Origin: Nodosilinea sp. P-1105 | Lineage (GTDB): Bacteria > Cyanobacteriota > Cyanobacteriia > Phormidesmidales > Phormidesmidaceae | Direction of reading: 5' to 3' | DNA length: 64,000 nucleotides | NCBI RefSeq assembly: GCF_012911975.1 | Contig: NZ_SMDQ01000001.1 | Span: 124,001-188,000, forward strand | Shown here: positions 23,216-40,182 of the stretch, in pieces | Position numbering within the stretch: position 1 is the stretch's first letter | Layout of the letters: each line of letters starts with the position of its first letter | Notes under the pieces: model-generated | The model's input: only the letters and a program-made list of their open reading frames with translations | Database searches by the model: none | What the model was told of the DNA's origin: nothing | Program-made: the position numbers and the translations under genes

Positions 23216-23618
23216 AGAGACATATCCTCAAAGCAAGACAGCAGACTTATGACAACCATGGCTGAGGGGGCAGGTGCCAGGGGACAGACGACGGGAAGGG
23301 TTGGTCGACCTCTGCCGCAGGGTATTAGCATCAGCACAAGGCTATGATTGCTTTCAATATAGCTAAATGGCTATATAGCTGCAAGGCAGTTTGATCGGTA
23401 CTGGGGTTTGAGGTTATGGAACAGTGATGCCCGCCGGTAGGACGGCGAGTTAACAGCAAAGTCTTCCCTGAGGCCGGTCCACGGGCCTGCCTGCCTCATC
23501 CAGAACCAGCCGCCGAGAACCACCTGGGAATAACTAGGAAAATCTCGAATTTTAGCGATTCATCCGGCACAATAGGGAGCAATGGCCCTAGCGCCCCCCC
23601 TGCTCAAGATTGTGCCCA
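23216..23618. other. Intergenic region upstream of the TIR-ATPase gene
   Basis: About 400 bp without a credible reading frame. The left part is AT-rich, with a short repeated TATAGCT motif (near 23360-23382), and probably holds promoters. From 23425 to 23535 the sequence becomes GC-rich, with possible hairpins (CGCCG/CGGCG at about 23433-23449; GAGGC/GCCTC at about 23471-23500). A small structured RNA is conceivable, but no known RNA family is recognised. Confidence 0.4.
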
Positions 23619-24839
23619 ATGCCTGATGCCGCTCCGCCCCATGACTTTTTTGTCAGCTACAACAGCGCTGACAAAGCCTGGGCCGAATGGATCGCCTGGA
23701 TTTTGGAAGATGCTGGCCATAGCGTTATCTATCAGGGCTGGGACTTTCGTCCAGGGGGTAACTTTATCCTGGATATGCAACGGGCTACTGGCTGCGATCG
23801 CACCATTGCCGTGTTATCCGAAGATTACCTAAACGCGACCTATACCCAGCCAGAATGGGCTGCTGCCTTGAAGCAAGATGCCGAGTCCATCGAGCGAAAG
23901 CTGATTCCCATTCGAGTTAAACCCTGTCAGCCCCAGGGCTTGCTAGCCCCGATTGTGTATGTCGATTTGGTGGGCAAGTCCCAGGATGAGGCTAGGGAAG
24001 CCGTTCTCAACGCCTTGCCCGATCGACTAAAACCTGCCAAGGAACCAGGGTTTCCTGGCTTGGAAGACAAGGCGTTTCCCGCAGAGCCTACACTTTCAAC
24101 CCAAGATTTGAGCCGTAGTCACGCGAAAGGGGCTATGTCGAATCCCTTTCTGCCATTGTCTGGAGCGGTGGAAAACCCGGCCCAGTTTTTCAATGGCGAA
24201 CCCACCCTTAGCCGTATCTTTGAGCTGCTAAATAGTGGCAGTAGTGTGGCGTTGATCGGCGATCGCAACCTGGGCAAATCATCGATTTTGCGCGCCGTCC
24301 ACCGGCAAGTCCCAGAGCGACTGCACCGCCCCCGCCAAACGGTGCTAATCAACCTGACCCGCATCTACAGCGAAGATGACTTTTACCATGCCCTCTGCGA
24401 AGCAATTGGGGTTCCCCCCTGCAACGGTCGCGAGCTAGACCGGATTCTTAGCCCCAAGCGCCTGCTACTGCTGCTGGATGAAGTGGAACGCATTAGCCAG
24501 GACGACTTTAGTCGCCGGGTGCGCGAGCAACTGCGGGGCCTGGCCGAAGGTGGCGATGCCCCCCTTAAACTGGTAATTGCCGCCAGCACCCCCCTGGCGC
24601 GCCTGTTTCCCGATAGCCACGCAGAAGGGATGGTGTCGCCTTTTGAGGATGTTTGTATCGAAGAATATCTGCAACCCTGGTCTCCAGAGGTGATGCGGGC
24701 GTTTATCCGCGATCGCCTGGCCACCACCCCAGTCACCTTCAGTGACAATGAGATCACCCACTGCCTCACCGCCTCTGCCGGTAAACCCAAACAGCTAATG
24801 CGCCTCTGCAACGACTGCTTTCGCACCAAACTCCCGTAG
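23619..24839 (+). CDS. TIR domain - AAA/STAND-type ATPase protein
   Basis: A 406-residue soluble protein. Residues 8 to about 135 form a TIR domain: HDFFVSYNSADKAWAEWIAW, YQGWDFRPGG, IAVLSEDYLNATYTQPEW. The Glu of PEW (E79) sits where catalytic NADase TIR domains have theirs. After a linker, a P-loop ATPase domain follows, with Walker A IGDRNLGKSSIL (K220) and Walker B LLLLLDEVERI (D287/E288), resembling Orc1/Cdc6-like or STAND modules. Bacterial TIR-NTPase proteins often sense phage and destroy or convert NAD; that role is inferred. The ATG at 23619 is chosen over a TTG at 23610. A 952-residue membrane ATPase gene follows 221 bp downstream on the same strand. Confidence 0.88.
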   Translation: MPDAAPPHDFFVSYNSADKAWAEWIAWILEDAGHSVIYQGWDFRPGGNFILDMQRATGCDRTIAVLSEDYLNATYTQPEWAAALKQDAESIERKLIPIRVKPCQPQGLLAPIVYVDLVGKSQDEAREAVLNALPDRLKPAKEPGFPGLEDKAFPAEPTLSTQDLSRSHAKGAMSNPFLPLSGAVENPAQFFNGEPTLSRIFELLNSGSSVALIGDRNLGKSSILRAVHRQVPERLHRPRQTVLINLTRIYSEDDFYHALCEAIGVPPCNGRELDRILSPKRLLLLLDEVERISQDDFSRRVREQLRGLAEGGDAPLKLVIAASTPLARLFPDSHAEGMVSPFEDVCIEEYLQPWSPEVMRAFIRDRLATTPVTFSDNEITHCLTASAGKPKQLMRLCNDCFRTKLP

Positions 24840-24898
24840 GGCATCGTTTCACCTTGTTCCTGTCATGACTATCTCAACGGCAAACTCCCTAGCAACTG

Positions 24899-25037
24899 AT
24901 CCCCCATCCCCTCCTCGGAGGGGTGCCCGGAGGGAGGGGTGGGTCCCCCAGACTGAGCTAACCCACCCCTGCCTACTTCGGCAAGTTACCCCTTTGGGGT
25001 CGCTGCGCGAACAGCACAGGCCTCCCCAGGAGGGGAT
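24899..25037. repeat. Dispersed intergenic repeat, family 1, copy c (inverted)
   Basis: This is the reverse complement of the family 1 unit. It starts CCCATCCCCTCCTCGGAGGG and ends CACAGGCCTCCCCAGGAGGG. It contains an extra block of about 30 bp (GGGGTCGCTGCGCGAACAG) shared only with copy e at 34846-34926, which defines a subtype. It separates the TIR-ATPase gene from the membrane ATPase gene. Confidence 0.85.
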
Positions 25038-25060
25038 GTTGGAAGCGGAGGTGCCCTGCC

Positions 25061-27919
25061 ATGACTAAAGACGACCTGGCCAACCTGCGCCTGGACCTGG
25101 CCCCCAAACTCGATCGCCCCCTGTCGCTGTGGAACCCCCTCGACTACCTGCGGCTGCTGTTTTGGGTGTTTTATTTTCCCCAGGCGTTGCGGTGGTATGT
25201 GGATCGCTTTGGCGGCAGTTACATACTAAATGGCGAATTTAGCTGGCGCGAAAAGATGTATATCCTACGTGATGCCTTAAGTAGCAATTGGGTGCAGCGC
25301 CGCCTTATGATCCAAGGAATATTACTTACAATCTCGATGTCGCTATTACTGGGACTACTAGCAGAGCAAGCCGGGATTCCTATTAGGTGGCTCATTGTAA
25401 TAGGAGGTCTAGTAGGGAGCGTGATGGGGATTTCAGTATTGAGCGCAGCGAGAGGGGTAGCGAGAGGTATATCTGAAGGCATGGCGTTTGTTATTACCTT
25501 TTCTGCTGTATTTCCTGTAACGGAAGCTGTAGCAAAAGATATAGTGCTCGGCGTAGCAGAATACTTATTAAAAGACCCTGCTAGAGTCATTGCATTTGTC
25601 ATATCTGAATTCATGTCAATAGGAGGGGTAGAAACAGTTGCATCAAGCATTTCATTCGTTGCAGCCTTGAGCGCATCTTATGGAGTAGTTTTGAGCGTGG
25701 CGACAGGCATGGCGTTGAGAATGGAATTCAGTTATGTCAAAATCATAAATTCTTTAACTTTCTCAGCCTTGATGTCAACTGCGTTAATTGGGGTAACTGG
25801 TAGTGTCGCGGCAAGCAATTTTCGGGAAGCTTCTGTAACAGAGTTCGGCACGTTCATCGGTTCTCTCATCTTCACAGGAGCCATGCTTTCCTACATGGCA
25901 GGATTTACAGTGCTTACCCTGGCTTCAGCAATTATTATTGATGTGGTGTTTTCACGGCCTGACAGCTGGCTCATTGCCATGTTGCTAAGTCCATTTTTTT
26001 GCGAAAGGCATATCCCAAAAGCTGGCTCAGTTACACTATTGTCGCTACCCTTCATTTGCCGGTACTTGCGAAAAAATATGAATGAAAGCTGGGAAGCTAG
26101 TCTTGAAAACACCGATCAAATTATAACTTATACTCGTCAATTTATCCCTGTTATTAGCCTTTTTAACGAACATTTAGCTAAAACACCTACTTGTCAACTA
26201 GTCGAACACATGGCTCAGCTGGCCGAGAGCTCTTTTGCATGGTCTTTAATTAAATTCAATTCCATATCCTTGGATGCAGCTCTTAAATATAAGAGGTCGT
26301 TCTTTCATTCATTTGTTATATATCCTCCTCTCCGCTTTGATACCCCCGCCCGTGCTGTGGCCGCTGGCTTCTGGCTTCTCCATGAAGAACAAGCCGCCGC
26401 CGCCGTCAAAGCTTTCGTAAACATTCGCAATATTCGCCATGGCGAAGAAATGTATGGCCTTGCCTGGCTCCTCGCTCGCTTCGATGCTGCTAGGATGGTC
26501 AAGGAAATTGCCGCCATCGAGCTGCCTGAACTCCCCCAGGATTGCACCTTCCGTTCTCAAACCTGGGCCGCCATCCATCGGTTTTACCAGGTTGTCAAAG
26601 ATACCAAAACTGTCCAGATCAGCGCCTCCCGCACTGCCCGCGCTTTCGCCACCAATCGTGCCCTTGGCGAACTGCAACACATTATTGAAAACGAAGCCGA
26701 CCTGCCCGAAGCCGAACGTTCCCTGGTGATCGAAATTGCCAAAACCTGGCGTAATGCCTTGCTGGAAATCACCGCTGAAGTAGGCGATCTGGCGATTACC
26801 CAGCCGGTGCAAAATCCCTACGTCATCGGCGATCCCGTCGAGGGGGAGCAGTTTGTAGGCCGCGACGACATCATGCGGCAACTCCAAGAGCTGTGGATGA
26901 TGGCCGAAGATCACAATCTGCAATCGGTGGTGATCTTCGGCCATCGCCGCATGGGTAAAACCTCCATTCTCAAAAACATCGAGTCTCGGCTGGGTTCAGG
27001 TATCCATATCGCCTACGTCAACCTGCTGCAAAGCGCCATGGCCGAAAACCTCAGCGATGTGCTGTCTGCCATCAGCGACCAGGTGGCGGCGACCCTGGTC
27101 ATTGCGCCCCCCAGGGATGCCGACATGGAAACCAGCCCGGCCCGCAGCTTCCAGCGGTTTATGCAGCGGGCCACCGACGCCCTTGCCGACGGCAAGGGGC
27201 TAATTATTGCCCTAGATGAGTTCGAGAAAATTGAAGAACTGATCGACGCCGGTAAGCTAGAGGCCAGCTTTTTGGCCTACCTGCGGGGGCTGGTGCAGGA
27301 TAGCCCCAGGGTGGGCTTTGCCTTTGCCGGGCTGCACACCCTGGAAGAAATGTCCGCCGACTACTTTCAGCCCTTTTTCGCCAGCGTCATTCCGATCAAA
27401 GTCGATTTCTTTCAGCCCACTACGGTGCAAGACCTGCTGCCCAACCCCGGCGGCGACTTCCCCCTCGACTACGACTACGATGCCCTCGATGCCATCTGGG
27501 AACTCACCGCTGGCCAGCCCTACCTCACCCAACTGGTGGGCTTCCAACTGGTGCGCCGCTACAACGACCAGGTGTTCGAGCGCCAGCAGTCCCGCGAGCC
27601 TAAATTCATGGTCGCAGACGTGCAGGCGGTGATCGACCAGCCCGACTTCTTTGACAAGGGCAAGCCCTACTTCCAGGGGGTGTGGGCTCAGGCGGGCCAG
27701 GACCCAGCCGGTCAGCAGGCGCTGCTGGCGGCCCTGGCTCCCCACCCGGATGGACTACCCATAGAAGCCCTCTGGGAAGCGGTTGACCTGGACGAGGCCG
27801 CCTGCGCGGCGGCTGTACAAACCCTAGAAAATCACGATGTGGTGCGCCAAGACCAGGGGCAGGTAGCGATTATTGTTGAGGTGTTTCGCCGCTGGGTATT
27901 GCAGACGCATCTACAATAA
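25061..27919 (+). CDS. Membrane protein with C-terminal P-loop ATPase domain
   Basis: A 952-residue protein. Residues about 80-330 hold a run of hydrophobic segments (for example MIQGILLTISMSLLLGLL, WLIVIGGLVGSVMGISVL and the Ala/Gly/Val-rich 190-295), so this part is in the membrane. Residues about 340-580 look like a soluble helical region. Residues about 595-950 form an ATPase domain: FVGRDDIMRQLQ, Walker A FGHRRMGKTSIL (K633), Walker B LIIALDEFEKI (D719/E720) and a C-terminal winged-helix-like end (GLPIEALWEAVDLDEAACAA). GGAGG lies about a dozen bases before the ATG. The membrane half uses AT-rich codons unlike the rest. Paired with the TIR-ATPase gene, it could be a membrane effector or anchor. 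The family is not characterised to my knowledge. Confidence 0.82.
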   Translation: MTKDDLANLRLDLAPKLDRPLSLWNPLDYLRLLFWVFYFPQALRWYVDRFGGSYILNGEFSWREKMYILRDALSSNWVQRRLMIQGILLTISMSLLLGLLAEQAGIPIRWLIVIGGLVGSVMGISVLSAARGVARGISEGMAFVITFSAVFPVTEAVAKDIVLGVAEYLLKDPARVIAFVISEFMSIGGVETVASSISFVAALSASYGVVLSVATGMALRMEFSYVKIINSLTFSALMSTALIGVTGSVAASNFREASVTEFGTFIGSLIFTGAMLSYMAGFTVLTLASAIIIDVVFSRPDSWLIAMLLSPFFCERHIPKAGSVTLLSLPFICRYLRKNMNESWEASLENTDQIITYTRQFIPVISLFNEHLAKTPTCQLVEHMAQLAESSFAWSLIKFNSISLDAALKYKRSFFHSFVIYPPLRFDTPARAVAAGFWLLHEEQAAAAVKAFVNIRNIRHGEEMYGLAWLLARFDAARMVKEIAAIELPELPQDCTFRSQTWAAIHRFYQVVKDTKTVQISASRTARAFATNRALGELQHIIENEADLPEAERSLVIEIAKTWRNALLEITAEVGDLAITQPVQNPYVIGDPVEGEQFVGRDDIMRQLQELWMMAEDHNLQSVVIFGHRRMGKTSILKNIESRLGSGIHIAYVNLLQSAMAENLSDVLSAISDQVAATLVIAPPRDADMETSPARSFQRFMQRATDALADGKGLIIALDEFEKIEELIDAGKLEASFLAYLRGLVQDSPRVGFAFAGLHTLEEMSADYFQPFFASVIPIKVDFFQPTTVQDLLPNPGGDFPLDYDYDALDAIWELTAGQPYLTQLVGFQLVRRYNDQVFERQQSREPKFMVADVQAVIDQPDFFDKGKPYFQGVWAQAGQDPAGQQALLAALAPHPDGLPIEALWEAVDLDEAACAAAVQTLENHDVVRQDQGQVAIIVEVFRRWVLQTHLQ

Positions 27920-29779: not shown

Positions 29780-31204
29780 CTACCGATAAACCTCTTTGAT
29801 CACACCGCCATCCGCCGCCATCAGTTGCACATGCAGGGGCATTTGCCCCGCCGCATGGGTCGAGCACGAGAGACAAGGGTCATAGCAACGGATGCCTGCC
29901 TCTACCCGGTTCAAAAATCCTTCTGGGATATCTTCGCTGTGGATGTAGTGCTTGGCGATTTGGGTGACGGTTTTGTTCATGGCCAGGTTATTCTGGCCCG
30001 TGGCGATGATCAGGTTCACCTTCTGGATCAGGCCGTTGTCGTCCACCTTGTAGTGGTGGAATAGGGTGCCGCGAGGGGCCTCACTGACGCCCACGGCCTC
30101 CAGGGCGTTCACCCCAGCATGGGATCGCACCCGGGGGGACATAATCTCGGGGTCATCCATCAACAGCTGGATATGTTCCAGGCAGGCCAGAATTTCCACC
30201 AGCCGAGCGTAGTGATACAGGAACGACGAGGTGGGGACGCCGCCAGCATAGTCCCGCAGGGCTTGCAGTTCAGTGTCGGCTTGGGGGGTGCCGATGCGAT
30301 CGCAGATATTCAGCCGCGCCAACGGACCCACCCGATAGATGCCATCCGGGTACCCCCTGGGCTTGTAGTAAGGGAACTTCAGGTAAGACCAGTTCTCTAC
30401 CGCTTCCCCCAAAAAGTCTTGGTAATCATCTTCCCTGAGGCCATCGGCCACAATATTGCCGTGGCTATCGGTAAACCGCAGATGGCCGTCGTAGTGCTCC
30501 CACTGGCCATCTTTTCCCACTAGGCCCATAAATAGGGAGGGAAATTCGCCGAACACCTCCACCTCTGCTTGCATAGGGCCAGTGATCAACCCCTTGAAAA
30601 TATCCAGGGCCTTGTGAATGGTGGCAAAGGATTCCGGCAGGCGATCGACAATCCAGGCTCGCCCCTCTTCGCTCAGGGGTTCTCGCACGCCGCCGGGTAC
30701 GGTCCAGGCGGCATGGATTTTGCGACCCCCCAGAATCTCAATCACCTTTTGGCCAAACTGGCGCAGACGGATGCCTGCCCGAGCCAGGTCGGGGTCGGCG
30801 GCAATCAGGCCGAATACATTTCGCTTGGCCGGGTCACTATCCCAACCCAGCAGAAAGTCAGGACTGCTGAGGTGGAAGAAGGACAGGGCATGGGACTGGG
30901 TGATCTGGCCCAGGTTCATCAGGCGACGTAGTTTATCCGCCGCTTTAGGAATTTGTACCGCTAGAATCTTATCCCCAGTCTTGGCCGAGCAAATCAGGTG
31001 GCTCACTGGGCAAATGCCACAAATCCGGGCTGTGATTCCCGCCATCTCCGTATAGGGGCGACCCTCACAAAATTTCTCAAACCCCCGGTATTCCACCACA
31101 TGAAACTGGGCATTAGACACTTCACCCGCATCATCCAAAAAGACCGAAATCTTGGCGTGGCCTTCAATGCGGGTAACGGGGTCGATAACTACGGTTTTTG
31201 CCAT
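29780..31204 (-). CDS. hoxH: Bidirectional NiFe hydrogenase large subunit HoxH
   Basis: A 474-residue catalytic subunit of the NAD(P)-linked hydrogenase. The four Ni-Fe site cysteines are in [10 protein letters not shown] near the N-terminus and [10 protein letters not shown] near the C-terminus. After the CSTH block about 24 residues remain ([12 protein letters not shown]...), the peptide removed by the HoxW protease during maturation. The ATG at 31204 ([18 protein letters not shown]) is preceded by a GGAGA site, so a 14-residue extension upstream is rejected. It is the last gene of the hox operon. The enzyme forms or consumes H2 in the cytoplasm, linked to fermentation and to redox relief when photosynthesis starts. 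Confidence 0.97.
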
Positions 31205-31267
31205 GGTTGTTCTCCGGCCTTTAAGAAAGGATCGATAGCGGCGCACGGCAGTGCGCCGCTATCGCGA

Positions 31268-31501
31268 TTACGTGTCGTACATCAACCCTTCGATCGCTTC
31301 CGGGTTTTCTTCCAGGTACTTATCGAAGTTGGTTTTCTTCGGTTGCTGGTGCTGGTGGGAGACTTCGGCCCGCATTTCTTCAACGGCGTCCCAAGCGGCG
31401 GCGGCCTCGGAGGACGTTTCCCCTTTTTCTGCGGTCACCTGGTGGGCGTAGTCAATCGCCTTTTGCAGCTCTTCGTTGAACTCTTTGCTGTCAACGCTCA
31501 T
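31268..31501 (-). CDS. CP12-like protein without cysteines
   Basis: A 77-residue protein located between hoxY and hoxH. It has the CP12 core AAAAWDAVEEMRAEVSHQ (canonical AWDxVEEL) and the C-terminal YLEENPEAIEGLMYDT, which aligns with the CP12 end YCDDNPEADECxxYD. Both C-terminal cysteines are replaced (Leu and Gly), and there is no N-terminal Cys pair. Canonical CP12 uses these disulfides to lock GAPDH and phosphoribulokinase in the dark, so this form cannot respond to thioredoxin in the same way. GAGGA lies 7 bases before the ATG at 31501. Its place in the operon suggests a link to hydrogenase or to an NAD(P)-binding partner. Confidence 0.85.
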   Translation of the reverse strand: MSVDSKEFNEELQKAIDYAHQVTAEKGETSSEAAAAWDAVEEMRAEVSHQHQQPKKTNFDKYLEENPEAIEGLMYDT

Positions 31502-31521
31502 AGATAGGTTCCTCAAACTAA

Positions 31522-32073
31522 CTAACCAAACTTAATCATCTCGCGACCTGCCATTTCAGGCTGTTGCCCATGTAGCAGCGGTTCAATGGTAGCCCGGATG
31601 CGATCCGCTGAGGGAGGGCAGCCGGGCATAAAGATATCGACCGGTACCACTTCGTGCACCGGGGTCACCCGGTCGATCAGCTCGGGCACAATGCCCGGGG
31701 CGTGGGGCAGTTGGGCGTTGGCATCCGCCAGTTCCAGGTAGCCCCGCTTCAACACCCCCTCGGCACTGTTGCGCAGCATGTTGCGCATGGCGGGCACATT
31801 GGCGGTGACGGCACAGTCTCCAAAGGAAATGAGCAGTTTGGTGTTGCGCCGTACCTGATAGATCAATTCCAGGTTGTCTTCGTTGGCCACAGCCCCTTCC
31901 ACCAGGCAGACATCCACAGCCTCGGGGTAGTGCTTCAGGTCGCAGCCCACGGGGCTATAGACCACCTCTACCTGGTCCGCCAGGTCGATCAAAAACTCAT
32001 CCAGGTCTAAAAACGACATGTGACAGCCCGAGCAACCCGCCAGCCAAACCGTGGCAAACCTTATCTTGTCCAT
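31522..32073 (-). CDS. hoxY: Bidirectional NiFe hydrogenase small subunit HoxY
   Basis: A 183-residue small subunit carrying the proximal Fe-S cluster: LAGCSGCHMSFLD at the N-terminus, a further Cys in the PVGCDLK segment, FGDCAVTANVPAMRN and MPGCPPSADRIRATI. It passes electrons between HoxH and the diaphorase part. The ATG at 32073 (MDKIRFATVWLAG) is the start because the conserved sequence begins there; it overlaps the end of hoxU by 13 bases, a sign of translational coupling. The longer open frame to 32280 is a hoxU shadow. Confidence 0.96.
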   Translation of the reverse strand: MDKIRFATVWLAGCSGCHMSFLDLDEFLIDLADQVEVVYSPVGCDLKHYPEAVDVCLVEGAVANEDNLELIYQVRRNTKLLISFGDCAVTANVPAMRNMLRNSAEGVLKRGYLELADANAQLPHAPGIVPELIDRVTPVHEVVPVDIFMPGCPPSADRIRATIEPLLHGQQPEMAGREMIKFG

Positions 32074-32777
32074 TGGTGCTTCTCCCGGGCGGTGTACAAA
32101 AATTCTAACTTGTCGGCATCGGCCTGCTTTTCGCCAGTGGTGCTGCCCTGTTTGAAGATGGCCCCCGTGGGGCAGGCATCCACACATTTGCCGCAGGAGG
32201 TACAGGCGTCCACCTCCCCCCAGGGTTGGTTTAGACCTGAGACAATGTAGCAGGCGGCCCCCCGCTGGGCCACATCCCACACATGGGCCCCTTCTACCTC
32301 GTCGCAGACGCGGACGCAGCGGGTGCAGAGGATGCAGCGGTTGTGGTCAATGCCAAACAGGGGATGGGACAGGTCAACGCCGCGATCGGGGAAGCGGTAG
32401 GGGAAGCGGCTGTGGTCCATGCCCACCTCGATGGCCACATCTTGTAGCTCACAGTTGCCGTTGGCCACGCAGATAGAGCACACATGGTTGCCCTCAGCAA
32501 AAATTAGCTCCACCGCCATGCGGCGATACTCTTGCAGTTTCGGGGTCTGAGTGTGGATCACCATGCCTTCCCACACCTCGGTGACACAGGCGGGCAGCAG
32601 CTTGTTTAAGCCCTCAATTTCCACCAGGCAAAGGCGGCAAGCCCCCACCGGGGTCAACCCCTCCAGATGGCAGAGTTTGGGGATGGGTACTGCCGCTTCT
32701 TTGGCCGCATCCATAATGCTAGTGCCCGCCTCTACGGCAATATCCTTGCCATCAATACTTAGGGTTCTTACGGCCAT
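32061..32777 (-). CDS. hoxU: Bidirectional hydrogenase diaphorase subunit HoxU
   Basis: A 238-residue iron-sulfur protein homologous to the N-terminal part of complex I NuoG. In order it has a plant-ferredoxin-type [2Fe-2S] site (CHLEGLTPVGACRLC), the His/Cys cluster region (HVCSICVANGNCELQD) and two [4Fe-4S] motifs (CILCTRCVRVC and CTSCGKCVDACPTG). It wires HoxF to HoxY. The ATG at 32777 has AAGGAGAT eight bases upstream. A 31-codon frame (32752-32847) overlaps its start. Confidence 0.96.
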   Translation of the reverse strand: MAVRTLSIDGKDIAVEAGTSIMDAAKEAAVPIPKLCHLEGLTPVGACRLCLVEIEGLNKLLPACVTEVWEGMVIHTQTPKLQEYRRMAVELIFAEGNHVCSICVANGNCELQDVAIEVGMDHSRFPYRFPDRGVDLSHPLFGIDHNRCILCTRCVRVCDEVEGAHVWDVAQRGAACYIVSGLNQPWGEVDACTSCGKCVDACPTGAIFKQGSTTGEKQADADKLEFLYTAREKHQWTR

Positions 32778-32944: not shown

Positions 32945-34585
32945 TCATGCGTTCACCTCGCTGGGGGTGGCTTGGCCGTTGAGGGCGCTCAGGTAGTCAG
33001 GCTCGACTAGCAGTTCCTCATACTCCTCCCGGAAATATTTCAGGGTGCTGAGGACGGGGTTGGGCGCAGTTTGGCCCAGGCCGCAGAGACTGGTATCGCG
33101 CACCATTTCGCACAGGGCTTCCATTTTGGTCAAATCGGCAGCGGTGGCCTGGCGCTTGAGAATTTTAGACAGCATGGCATAGAGCTGTACGGTGCCGGTG
33201 CGGCAGGGGACACACTTGCCGCAGGTTTCTCCCCGGCAGAACTCCATGTAGAACTGGGCAATGCCTACCATGCTGGTGGCGTCATCCATCACCACCATGC
33301 CCCCAGACCCCATCATCGAGCCCACTTGCCGCAGAGAGTCGTAGTCCACCGGGGTATCCAGCATGGACTTGGGAATGCAGCCGCCGGAAGGACCCCCAGT
33401 TTGGACGGCTTTCACCTCGCCGTCGGGCACACCGCCACCCATCTCTTCCACAATTTGCCGCAGGGTAATGCCCATGGGTACTTCGATCAGGCCGTTGTTG
33501 CGGATTTTGCCGGTGAGGGCAAAGATTTTGGTGCCCTTGCTGTTGTCGGTGCCGATGTTGGCGTACCAGTCGGCCCCGTTGCGAATAATCGCCGTGATAT
33601 TGGCCAGGGTCTCGACGTTGTTGATCAAGGTAGGGTAGTCATAGAGGCCCTTTTCGGCAGGGTATGGGGGCCGAGGCACCGGGTTGCCTCGCCCGCCTTC
33701 GATGGACTGAATCAGGGCGGTTTCTTCGCCGCAGACAAAGGCCCCGGCCCCAATGCGGATATCGATTTTGAAGTCAAAGGGGGAGTCGAAGATCTGGCTG
33801 CCCAGCAGGCCATACTTTTTGGCCTGCTGAATCCCTTTTTGCAGTCGGGCGATCGCCAGTGGATACTCGGCCCGCACATAGATGTAGCCGTGGTTGGCCC
33901 CGACGGCGTAGCCTGCGATCGCCATCCCCTCCAGCACCAGGTGCGGATCGCTCTCTAGAATGCTGCGGTCCATGAAGGCCCCGGGGTCACCCTCATCCCC
34001 ATTGCAGATGATGTACTTCTGGCCCTCGGGCATTTTGGCCACCGTGGCCCACTTTAGTCCAGTGGGGTAGCCGCCCCCGCCCCGCCCCCGCAGGCCGCTC
34101 TGGGAAACCTGATCCACCACCTCAGCGGGGGTCATTTCGTAGATGGCCTTGTGCAACGCCTGGTAGCCCCCCACCGCAATGTAGTCCTCAATCCGTTCGG
34201 GATCAATTTTGCCGCTGTACTCTCTTACCACCCGCATCTGACGGGCAAAAAATGGATGCTGAGGATCCCCTTGAATCGGCTTGGCCTCGCCACCGGTCAT
34301 TGCCTCAATGATGCTGGCAGCTTCGTCAGGCACCACCTCTTCATACAGCCGATCATCCGGGTCTATCTGCACCAGCGGCCCCCGGCCACAAAACCCCATG
34401 CAACCTACCCCCACCACCTCCACCCGATCGTCCAGGTGCTGGTCTTTGACCGCCTGTTGCAGGTTGCCATAGATACCCATGGCGTCTGCGGCCCGACAGC
34501 CCGTGGAGGTACAACAGTGGACTCGCACCGGTTTCTGGCGATCGCGCTCAGCCTTGGCAATATCTTGGAGGGTTTGTAGGTCCAT
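32945..34585 (-). CDS. hoxF: Bidirectional hydrogenase diaphorase subunit HoxF
   Basis: A 546-residue NADH/FMN-binding subunit, homologous to NuoE-NuoF. Residues 1 to about 110 are a thioredoxin-like [2Fe-2S] domain (CCTSTGC and GVGCMGFCGRGP). The FMN/NAD site follows (GLRGRGGGGYPTGLKW, CNGDEGDPGAFMDR and GAGAFVCGEETAL) and the C-terminal [4Fe-4S] motif is GETCGKCVPCRTG. It oxidises NAD(P)H or reduces NAD(P)+ for the hydrogenase. The ATG at 34585 with AAGGA upstream starts MDLQTLQDIAKAERD; the frame stays open further upstream only because it runs through repeats, and that extension is not credible. Confidence 0.96.
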   Translation of the reverse strand: MDLQTLQDIAKAERDRQKPVRVHCCTSTGCRAADAMGIYGNLQQAVKDQHLDDRVEVVGVGCMGFCGRGPLVQIDPDDRLYEEVVPDEAASIIEAMTGGEAKPIQGDPQHPFFARQMRVVREYSGKIDPERIEDYIAVGGYQALHKAIYEMTPAEVVDQVSQSGLRGRGGGGYPTGLKWATVAKMPEGQKYIICNGDEGDPGAFMDRSILESDPHLVLEGMAIAGYAVGANHGYIYVRAEYPLAIARLQKGIQQAKKYGLLGSQIFDSPFDFKIDIRIGAGAFVCGEETALIQSIEGGRGNPVPRPPYPAEKGLYDYPTLINNVETLANITAIIRNGADWYANIGTDNSKGTKIFALTGKIRNNGLIEVPMGITLRQIVEEMGGGVPDGEVKAVQTGGPSGGCIPKSMLDTPVDYDSLRQVGSMMGSGGMVVMDDATSMVGIAQFYMEFCRGETCGKCVPCRTGTVQLYAMLSKILKRQATAADLTKMEALCEMVRDTSLCGLGQTAPNPVLSTLKYFREEYEELLVEPDYLSALNGQATPSEVNA

Positions 34586-34613
34586 GGGAGTGTTCCTTGG
34601 GGGGGAGGTGAAG

Positions 34614-34675
34614 GGGTGGATGGGTGGATGGGTGGATGGGGGGATGGGTGGATGGGTGGATGGGTGGATGGGTAG
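34614..34675. repeat. Tandem GGATGGGT octamers
   Basis: About seven to eight head-to-tail copies of the 8-mer GGATGGGT (one degenerate, GGATGGGG) directly upstream of hoxF within the hox operon. The same unit is amplified at 53784-53858 and in short runs at 39744-39800; the complementary form occurs at 40110-40170. It belongs to the short tandem repeats typical of filamentous cyanobacteria. Confidence 0.9.
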
Positions 34676-34840
34676 GGGCGGACCTGTGTGTCCGCCCTGG
34701 CGGGGGAATGGAGGCGGTGAGGAATTTTGAATTTTGGATTCTTCCCTTTTCGTTTTTCGTTCTTCAAATACGTAGGGGCGGACCTGTGTGTCCGCCCTGG
34801 CGGGGGAATGGAGGCGGTGAGGAATTTTGGATTTTGGATT
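34672..34840. repeat. Two direct copies of a palindrome-bearing repeat, family 3
   Basis: A block of about 60 bp starting GTAGGGGCGGACCTGTGTGT and ending GAGGCGGTGAGGAATTTTG occurs at 34672-34731 and again at 34772-34831. The inner GGGCGGAC...GTCCGCCC is self-complementary. Relatives of the core, with A or T changes, are at 39949-39985 and 40037-40075 in the opposite orientation. The copies separate hoxE from hoxF and do not encode protein. Confidence 0.85.
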
Positions 34841-34845
34841 TTGGC

Positions 34846-34926
34846 ATCCCCTCCTGGGAGGCCTGTGCTGTTCGTGTAGCGGCCCCGGAGGGGCAACTTG
34901 CCGAAGTAGGCAGGGGTGGGTCAGCT
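34846..34926. repeat. Dispersed intergenic repeat, family 1, copy e
   Basis: CATCCCCTCCTGGGAGGCCT, the insert GTTCGTGTAGCGGCCCCGGA, then CTTGCCGAAGTAGGCAGGGG. It shares the extra block with copy c. After it, 34927-35001 holds GATTTTGGATT words and GCACGGGCTACGCCCTACGT, which recurs at 53900-53922. Confidence 0.8.
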
Positions 34927-35001
34927 CGATTTTGGATTTTGGATTCTTCCTTTTGCTACGCACGGGCTACGCCCTACGTTCTTCAACTACGCCCTACCCA
35001 A

Positions 35002-35550
35002 TCACCCCTCCCCTTCCCAGACTTTGACCTTGGCGACGGCCTGCTCGGGGGAGAGCTTGCCGCCGACGGTGCCATCAAACACTACGGCGGGGGCGATACC
35101 GCAGGCCCCCAGACAGCGGGCGGCCATTAGGGAGACCTTGCCGTCGGGGGTGGTTTCACCCAGTTCAATGCCCAATTCTTCCTGTAATTTCTCCATCACT
35201 TTGTCCCCACCTTTGACGTAGCAGGCGGTGCCCATACACACCACACAGGTGTGAGCGCCGCTGGGTTTAAGGGAAAACAGGTGATAGAACGTGGCGACGC
35301 CATACACCTTGCTGAGGGGAAGCTTCAGGCCATGGGCAATGTGCTGAAGCACATCTTCTTCTAAAAAACCAAAGGCTTCTTGGGCCACATGGAGGACTTC
35401 GATCAAGGCATCGGGCTGATGCTGGTGCCGCTTCATGGTGATGTCGAGGCGCTTGAAGCGGAGATCGGGTTTGGCCTTGGCTTTGGTCGGTTGGGCAGCC
35501 GATTTGGCTTGGGCAGACTCAACCTGCGAGGTAGTGGCGGTAGGTGGCAT
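35002..35550 (-). CDS. hoxE: Bidirectional hydrogenase subunit HoxE
   Basis: A 182-residue [2Fe-2S] protein homologous to NuoE. The first 45 residues are an Ala/Lys-rich extension; the conserved part runs from HQHQPDALIEVLHVAQEAFG through YGVATFYHLFSLKPSG. The cluster cysteines are in CVVCMGTACYVKGG and AARCLGACGIAPA. It is the first gene of the hox operon and thought to take part in electron exchange with ferredoxin or NAD(P)H. The ATG at 35550 is the only start. About 416 bp of repeats separate it from hoxF, an unusually wide gap for this operon. Confidence 0.95.
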   Translation of the reverse strand: MPPTATTSQVESAQAKSAAQPTKAKAKPDLRFKRLDITMKRHQHQPDALIEVLHVAQEAFGFLEEDVLQHIAHGLKLPLSKVYGVATFYHLFSLKPSGAHTCVVCMGTACYVKGGDKVMEKLQEELGIELGETTPDGKVSLMAARCLGACGIAPAVVFDGTVGGKLSPEQAVAKVKVWEGEG

Positions 35551-39688: not shown

Positions 39689-40182
39689 TGAAGTGATGAA
39701 GTGATGAAGTGATGGGGTGGTGGGGTGGTGGGGTGGTGGGGTAATGGGTGGATGGGTGGATGGGCGCTGCCCTGAGCTTGTCGAAGGGTGGATGGGTAGC
39801 GAGCCTAGAATTTACCGGTGACTGCACCAGTCTCTGTAACGCCTGATGTGGCCTACGCCCCTTCCTGGCTGCCCCACCACTGACCCACCCCCTCCGAGGA
39901 GTGGACAGGCCCAATTTCCCCCCATCCACCCTCCCCCACCTACAACTTCATCGCTAGGGCAGACACACAGGTCTGCCCCTACCCCATTCCCATCCACCCA
40001 TCCACCTCCCCACCTTCCCCACCTCCCCACCTACAATTTCATCGCTAGGGCAGACACACAGGTCTGCCCCTACCCCATTCCCATCCCCCCTACCCTGCGG
40101 GAAGCCACTCCGCGTCTACACCCATCCACCCTTCATCTCCCCACTTCTTCACCCGCCCACCCATCCACCCATCCACTCCCCT
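39689..40182. repeat. Repeat-filled spacer inside the RND efflux operon
   Basis: These 494 bp hold several repeats: GAAGTGATGA units (39687-39716), GGTGGTGGGG units (39713-39742), GGATGGGT units (39744-39800), a TGAGCTTGTCGAAGG word (39773-39787), and two copies of a unit of about 57 bp containing GGGCAGACACACAGGTCTGC (39940-39997 and 40031-40087). ATCCACCC-type octamers follow up to the permease start. The word CGCGTCTACACCC at about 40110 recurs at 58591-58603. No gene is present. Confidence 0.85.

Follow-up and report, generated by a model that had tools for sequence, protein, structure and literature searches.

A cysteine-free CP12-family protein encoded between hoxY and hoxH in Nodosilinea sp. 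P-1105

Results

A CP12-family gene lies inside the hox operon

The window, a stretch of 64,000 nucleotides from Nodosilinea sp. P-1105, carries on its minus strand the genes hoxE, hoxF, hoxU, hoxY, a CP12-family gene, and hoxH, in this order (Table 1). Judged by gene order only, the succession of hoxE, F, U, Y, and H on a single strand is that of the cyanobacterial bidirectional hox operon. The CP12 gene starts 20 nt past the hoxY stop, and hoxH is the next gene downstream. The first-pass annotation had proposed a gene with its own ribosome site between hoxY and hoxH. Its coordinates were correct, with the gene on the minus strand; a Shine-Dalgarno-like sequence was found ahead of the ATG, and the neighbors were identified as hox genes by Pfam and NCBIfam. 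A plasmid origin was rejected, as the plasmid collection gave no match.

Table 1. Features of the hox region, in coordinates of the window
Feature	Positions	Strand	Remarks
hoxH, NiFe hydrogenase large subunit	29780..31204	-	Pfam NiFeSe_Hases; ATG 31204 chosen by eye; longer frame from GTG at 31246
Strong hairpin	31233..31264	-	14 pairs, no T run; in the gap between CP12 and hoxH
CP12-family gene	31268..31501	-	77 aa; ATG at 31501; stand-alone, Cys-free, CP12-0 type
Shine-Dalgarno-like TTGAGGA	31510..31516	-	Precedes the CP12 ATG; read from the sequence
hoxY, hydrogenase small subunit	31522..32073	-	Pfam Oxidored_q6; start 32073 chosen by eye; longer frame extends to 32280
hoxU, diaphorase subunit	32061..32777	-	Above NCBIfam bidirectional-hydrogenase cut-off
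hoxF, diaphorase subunit	32945..34585	-	Pfam Complex1_51K; start 34585 chosen by eye; longer frame to 34963 enters repeats
hoxE, diaphorase subunit	35002..35550	-	Above NCBIfam bidirectional-hydrogenase cut-off

Intergenic repeats, comprising an 8-nt GGTGGATG tandem and direct repeats of 69 nt and 89 nt, were seen at 34591-34954 and 39911-40090, and these seem to lengthen the hoxF frame artificially at its start. The hairpin upstream of hoxH possibly has a role in mRNA processing or stabilization. Palindromes of different sequence are also present in the CP12-hoxH gap of three other loci (L159, L165, and L080). Elsewhere in the window, the plus strand at 23610-27919 encodes a 409-aa frame, with what we take to be a TIR-like N-terminus, followed by a 952-aa frame with a match to the AAA_16 ATPase. 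These two frames could be a defence or signalling pair.

The protein retains the CP12 core and contains no cysteine

A profile search with the 77-aa protein gave a score of 81.7 bits for Pfam CP12 (PF02672), compared to a cut-off of 22.7 (E 6.6e-23). This was the sole Pfam domain above the cut-off, and no CBS domain was found in the protein. The search therefore placed the protein within the CP12 family, and the first-pass reading of a CP12 relative was borne out by this score, by sequence matches in the structure database, and by fold matches. Residues 36-42, AWDAVEE, retain the AWD_VEE core of the family. The whole translation contains no Cys, so that the N-terminal Cys pair is absent, and LEENPEAIEG stands where canonical CP12 has the C-terminal CxxxPxxxxC; the earlier observation that both pairs are gone was correct.

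The top solved relatives by sequence were the CP12 of T. elongatus (6gfo, E 1e-14) and the CBS-CP12 5nmu. An AlphaFold2 model built with 23 sequences (pLDDT 73, pTM 0.47) placed helices at residues 6-26 and 31-50, and the best nine Foldseek matches were all CP12 or CBS-CP12 chains, with 6gfo at the top and none with E < 0.001. The protein is thus predicted to form an N-terminal helical hairpin that keeps the AWD_VEE core. It shares this core with the canonical T. elongatus protein but, in the alignment, lacks both redox Cys pairs as well as the Arg of ECRIYD.

Two other known systems are close. CP12-0 is a described class of cyanobacterial CP12 without Cys pairs (class from Stanley et al. 2013; PMC3906501), so a Cys-less CP12 in itself is already known. 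A Leptolyngbya protein is the example in a figure legend of PMC3906501. The class and the window protein have in common the stand-alone domain, the AWD_VEE core, and the lack of a Cys pair and of CBS; the account of the class in the consulted sections of PMC3906501, however, includes neither a hox operon location nor a loss from a form with the N-terminal pair only. The CBS-CP12 fusions, such as 5nmu, occur in the same hoxY-hoxH slot, and the hox-linked ones that were scored likewise lack the canonical C-terminal pair. In contrast to these fusions, the window protein has no CBS domain. Descent from a degraded CBS-CP12 is not favored because the domain tree joins the window clade to the stand-alone CP12s (SH-aLRT 93, a weak result from 79 columns).

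The source genome has five CP12-family loci in all, one of which is a canonical four-Cys CP12 (L001), and two PRK-family (PF00485) loci.

CP12 domains recur between hoxY and hoxH

The survey of hox operons covered a draw of 388 genomes of the class, of which 129 yielded a HoxH; seven of the 129 had fragments only and were left out, which gave 122 genomes with a readable hoxH region. One genome from an earlier draw (G024) and 80 named loci, some from the same genomes, were added. In 47 of the 122 genomes, a CP12 domain encoded on the strand of the hox genes separated hoxY from hoxH, as a CBS-CP12 fusion in 36 and as a stand-alone gene in 11. Nine genomes without a hoxY found in the region were kept in this denominator, and one of them (L228) is counted among the 47. 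Forty of the domains scored at least 70 bits, and the seven lower ones, weak or truncated, were all in CBS frames. Three more genomes had a CP12 domain no more than 4 kb downstream of hoxH. The slot held a CP12 domain in at least one member of 12 of the 26 families and was without one in 75 of the 122 genomes. The gene was expected to recur in other hox operons, and CP12 domains did, in a minority of them.

A chance neighbor was rejected, since random placement would give about 0.4 of 122 under generous settings that ignore kinship. Pfam detected both CBS and CP12 in four fusions tested and CBS alone in a fifth, truncated one (L057, the same place as L253). The CP12 domain copy of G012 scored just at the cut-off. 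No CP12 domain was found in the nine named loci whose titles are non-cyanobacterial (L131, L136, L145, L146, L148, and L155-L158).

A FastTree tree of HoxH with 187 rows and local support groups the window's operons in a single 12-row clade, in which 11 rows have a stand-alone CP12 and one is cut off by a contig end. The CBS-CP12 label needs 16 changes on this tree, at least 10 of them on starred branches, and presence or absence of the domain needs 18. On this tree, the domain would have been gained or lost repeatedly in the slot.

Several loci differ from these arrangements. In L118 (1883-2558), the CBS and CP12 portions occupy separate reading frames in the hoxY-hoxH interval, which from its sequence appears to be a split or frameshifted fusion. 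Some genus and family members (L056, L057, L059, and L060) have a more distant hox operon (HoxH 68-71%), in which the CBS protein terminates in a shortened remnant of CP12. The hox cluster of Nodularia is described as free of extra ORFs in the consulted part of PMC3610870. Anabaena alr0765, listed as 'hypothetical' under bidirectional hydrogenase (PMC4915528, in part), is a gene that we infer to be a CBS-CP12.

Orthologues are conserved in relatives without hydrogenase

Orthologues were found, as a single copy each, in 25 of the 26 genus genomes. Seven are in a hox operon, which for G005 we infer across a contig break, and 18 are behind an RNase D-like gene; no CP12 was found around the RNase D gene in the seven hox-linked genus genomes. 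Pooled dN/dS, calculated by NG86 with undefined pairs dropped, was 0.040 for the hox-linked copies (17 of 21 pairs) and 0.033 for the RNase D-linked copies (150 of 153 pairs). These ratios indicate strong purifying selection on both sets alike. Together with the presence of the gene in 25 genomes, the source genome included, the low dN/dS excludes a chance ORF.

At thresholds of 1e-30 and 1e-60, 14 of the 18 RNase D-linked genomes gave neither HoxH nor HoxF, and all 14 keep the orthologue; some of these genomes are incomplete, such as G002 at 86%. Genomes G012, G015, G025, and G004 have an RNase D-linked orthologue and a hox operon elsewhere, with a HoxH 68-80% like that of the window. In G021, which is 87% complete, HoxF was found, and HoxH and the orthologue were not. 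At the level of the family, 34 of 63 genomes had an orthologue at E <= 1e-18. Three genomes of other genera (G032, G159, and G227) kept it with no HoxH found. Five genomes of other genera (L287-L291) have an orthologue with the N-terminal Cys pair only, at varying addresses; in L288, L290, and L291, it is upstream of apparent amino-acid ABC transporter genes, which were named by eye.

The CP12 protein seems to matter without a hydrogenase. Its partner need not be the hydrogenase because the gene is retained, under purifying selection, in the 14 genus genomes that gave neither HoxH nor HoxF. For the same reason, the action on the diaphorase suggested by the first-pass annotation is weakened. 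More broadly, the hairpin might dock on HoxEFU or HoxYH and tune the diaphorase or assembly. Many lineages place a CP12 domain between both hydrogenase subunit genes, and the repeated changes on the HoxH tree also speak for a hydrogenase target. Retention of the gene without HoxH, both in the genus and in the three genomes of other genera, and the many hox operons with no CP12 domain in the slot speak against it, and we consider it distinctly unlikely.

In the RNase D tree and the joint tree, the 18 RNase D-linked genomes form one clade (100/99 and 99/100) nested in the hox-linked ones. Such nesting suggests a move of the gene out of the hox operon at the time the native operon disappeared. 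A single clade of the seven hox-linked genus members was not rejected (p-AU 0.124 and 0.397), and the CP12 tree alone leaves the direction of movement undecided. Residue 70 is Ile in six of the seven hox-linked genus members and Pro in the 18 RNase D-linked members and three outgroups, a distribution that fits departure from the hox operon less well.

Another possible explanation is that this is a useful small CP12-0 gene that changes sites, in which case its place in the hox operon would have no special meaning. The orthologue occurs at several addresses, among them the hox operon, the site next to RNase D, and a site ahead of what look like amino-acid ABC transporter genes, which is consistent with such a moving passenger. 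However, CP12 domains of apparently separate origin share the hoxY-hoxH slot in 12 of 26 families, far above random placement, and we regard this explanation as unlikely.

Loss of the cysteine pairs follows lineage

The canonical C-terminal Cys pair was scored against a comparison set of 35 domains, our own selection from the matches. It was present in 0 of 54 hox-linked domains scored (one genome entered twice, as L150 and L245) compared to 21 of 22 stand-alone CP12s elsewhere. It was found in 3 of 13 CBS-CP12s outside hox, in 0 of 5 moved orthologues outside hox, and in 0 of 4 CP12 domains in hox regions but farther off. Fisher values for these comparisons take no account of kinship. Our own regular expressions were used, and hox-region domains below 70 bits and other domains below 60 bits were excluded; the five excluded domains are L003, L004, L005, L305, and L306. 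Because relatives of the window protein outside the hox operon are also without the C-terminal pair, its loss is a feature of the lineage and not of the hox location.

The N-terminal pair is kept in five hox-linked stand-alone copies of other genera in the same HoxH clade, and also in the five moved orthologues. No Cys was found in any of the 25 genus orthologues, including the 18 RNase D-linked ones; on this comparison, the window's genus has lost the N-terminal pair. The Arg of the canonical ECR(I/V)YD is missing in 24 of the 25 genus copies and retained in G018. These absences argue against a C-terminal tail that, independently of Cys, still allows binding of GAPDH or some other NAD(P) enzyme, as does the finding that Synechocystis mutants without the C-terminal pair resemble a cp12 deletion on glucose (PMC9514657, in part). 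In an alignment of 23 CP12s that includes paralogues, Y62, P67, A69, E71, and Y75 of the tail region never vary, as such binding would allow, but we hold it to be very unlikely.

Discussion

Our preferred reading, put forward tentatively and at slightly less than even probability, is that the protein is a redox-blind CP12 that restrains phosphoribulokinase (PRK) and is co-encoded with the hydrogenase. The N-terminal helical hairpin of this CP12-0 type protein would bind PRK, the canonical docking on GAPDH would be lost, and PRK would be braked regardless of redox state, with no thiol switch. Co-encoded with the bidirectional hydrogenase, the protein would hold down RuBP formation in dark, anoxic, reducing conditions, under which canonical CP12 could lose its hold through reduction of its disulfides. 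In other families, the CBS-CP12 fusions found at this place in the operon would perhaps have the same role plus an adenylate sensor. A link to the Calvin cycle, proposed earlier from the sequence, is still the likeliest reading, although it would run through PRK and not GAPDH because the GAPDH-docking Cys pair is missing.

Various studies, cited here for the sections consulted, bear on this reading. According to PMC9406205, GAPDH is contacted by the CxxxPxxxxC end, and the ternary complex can still assemble with some CP12s that have no N-terminal pair. CBS-CP12 acts as a PRK inhibitor with no ternary complex being formed (PMC9514657). However, PMC9623430 assigns PRK docking in Synechocystis to the N-terminal pair, and PMC9406205 gives weaker PRK binding for CP12 without the N-terminal disulfide and, for the algal system it describes, binding of GAPDH before PRK. 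The CBS-CP12 of Synechococcus PCC 7002 also failed to replace canonical CP12 in Synechocystis (PMC9514657). For the CP12 of S. elongatus PCC 7942, the sources disagree: it is without the N-terminal pair in PMC9406205 and has four Cys in PMC9514657. Judged from its gene content, the source genome already has a PRK brake, since it carries the four-Cys CP12 and three further CP12-family loci, and the counts outside the operon (pair present in none of 5 moved orthologues and in 3 of 13 CBS-CP12s) indicate that the absence of the C-terminal pair is independent of a hox location. Both points also count against a redox-blind PRK brake.

Hackenberg 2018 reportedly describes CBS-CP12 genes in several neighborhoods, some unrelated to photosynthesis, and these may include hox. 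A literature search on CP12 or CBS-CP12 with hydrogenase or hox genes, with that paper and Stanley 2013 outside its coverage, found no report of CP12 in a hox operon. The novelty of the CP12-hox link is therefore unproven.

A bolder reading, which we consider somewhat unlikely, is that the cyanobacterial bidirectional hydrogenase repeatedly uses proteins with a CP12 domain as dedicated accessories. These proteins would have been recruited between hoxY and hoxH apparently at least twice, as stand-alone and CBS-fused forms without the GAPDH dock, and would couple H2 turnover to PRK or dock on HoxEFUYH, acting as a direct hydrogen-carbon switch.

The purpose of the cyanobacterial bidirectional hydrogenase and its tie to carbon metabolism are still debated, and CP12 uses a sulfur switch to turn carbon fixation off in darkness. 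A CP12-type Calvin-cycle regulator is encoded in the hydrogenase operon of roughly one in three hox-bearing genomes in the survey (40-47 of 122), and hydrogen metabolism and carbon fixation may be under joint control. The window protein points to a CP12 that should function without the thiol switch. Hydrogen engineering that moves or deletes hox operons could take CP12 along unnoticed, and the hox-encoded CP12 offers a concrete, cheap way to probe the hydrogen-to-carbon link.
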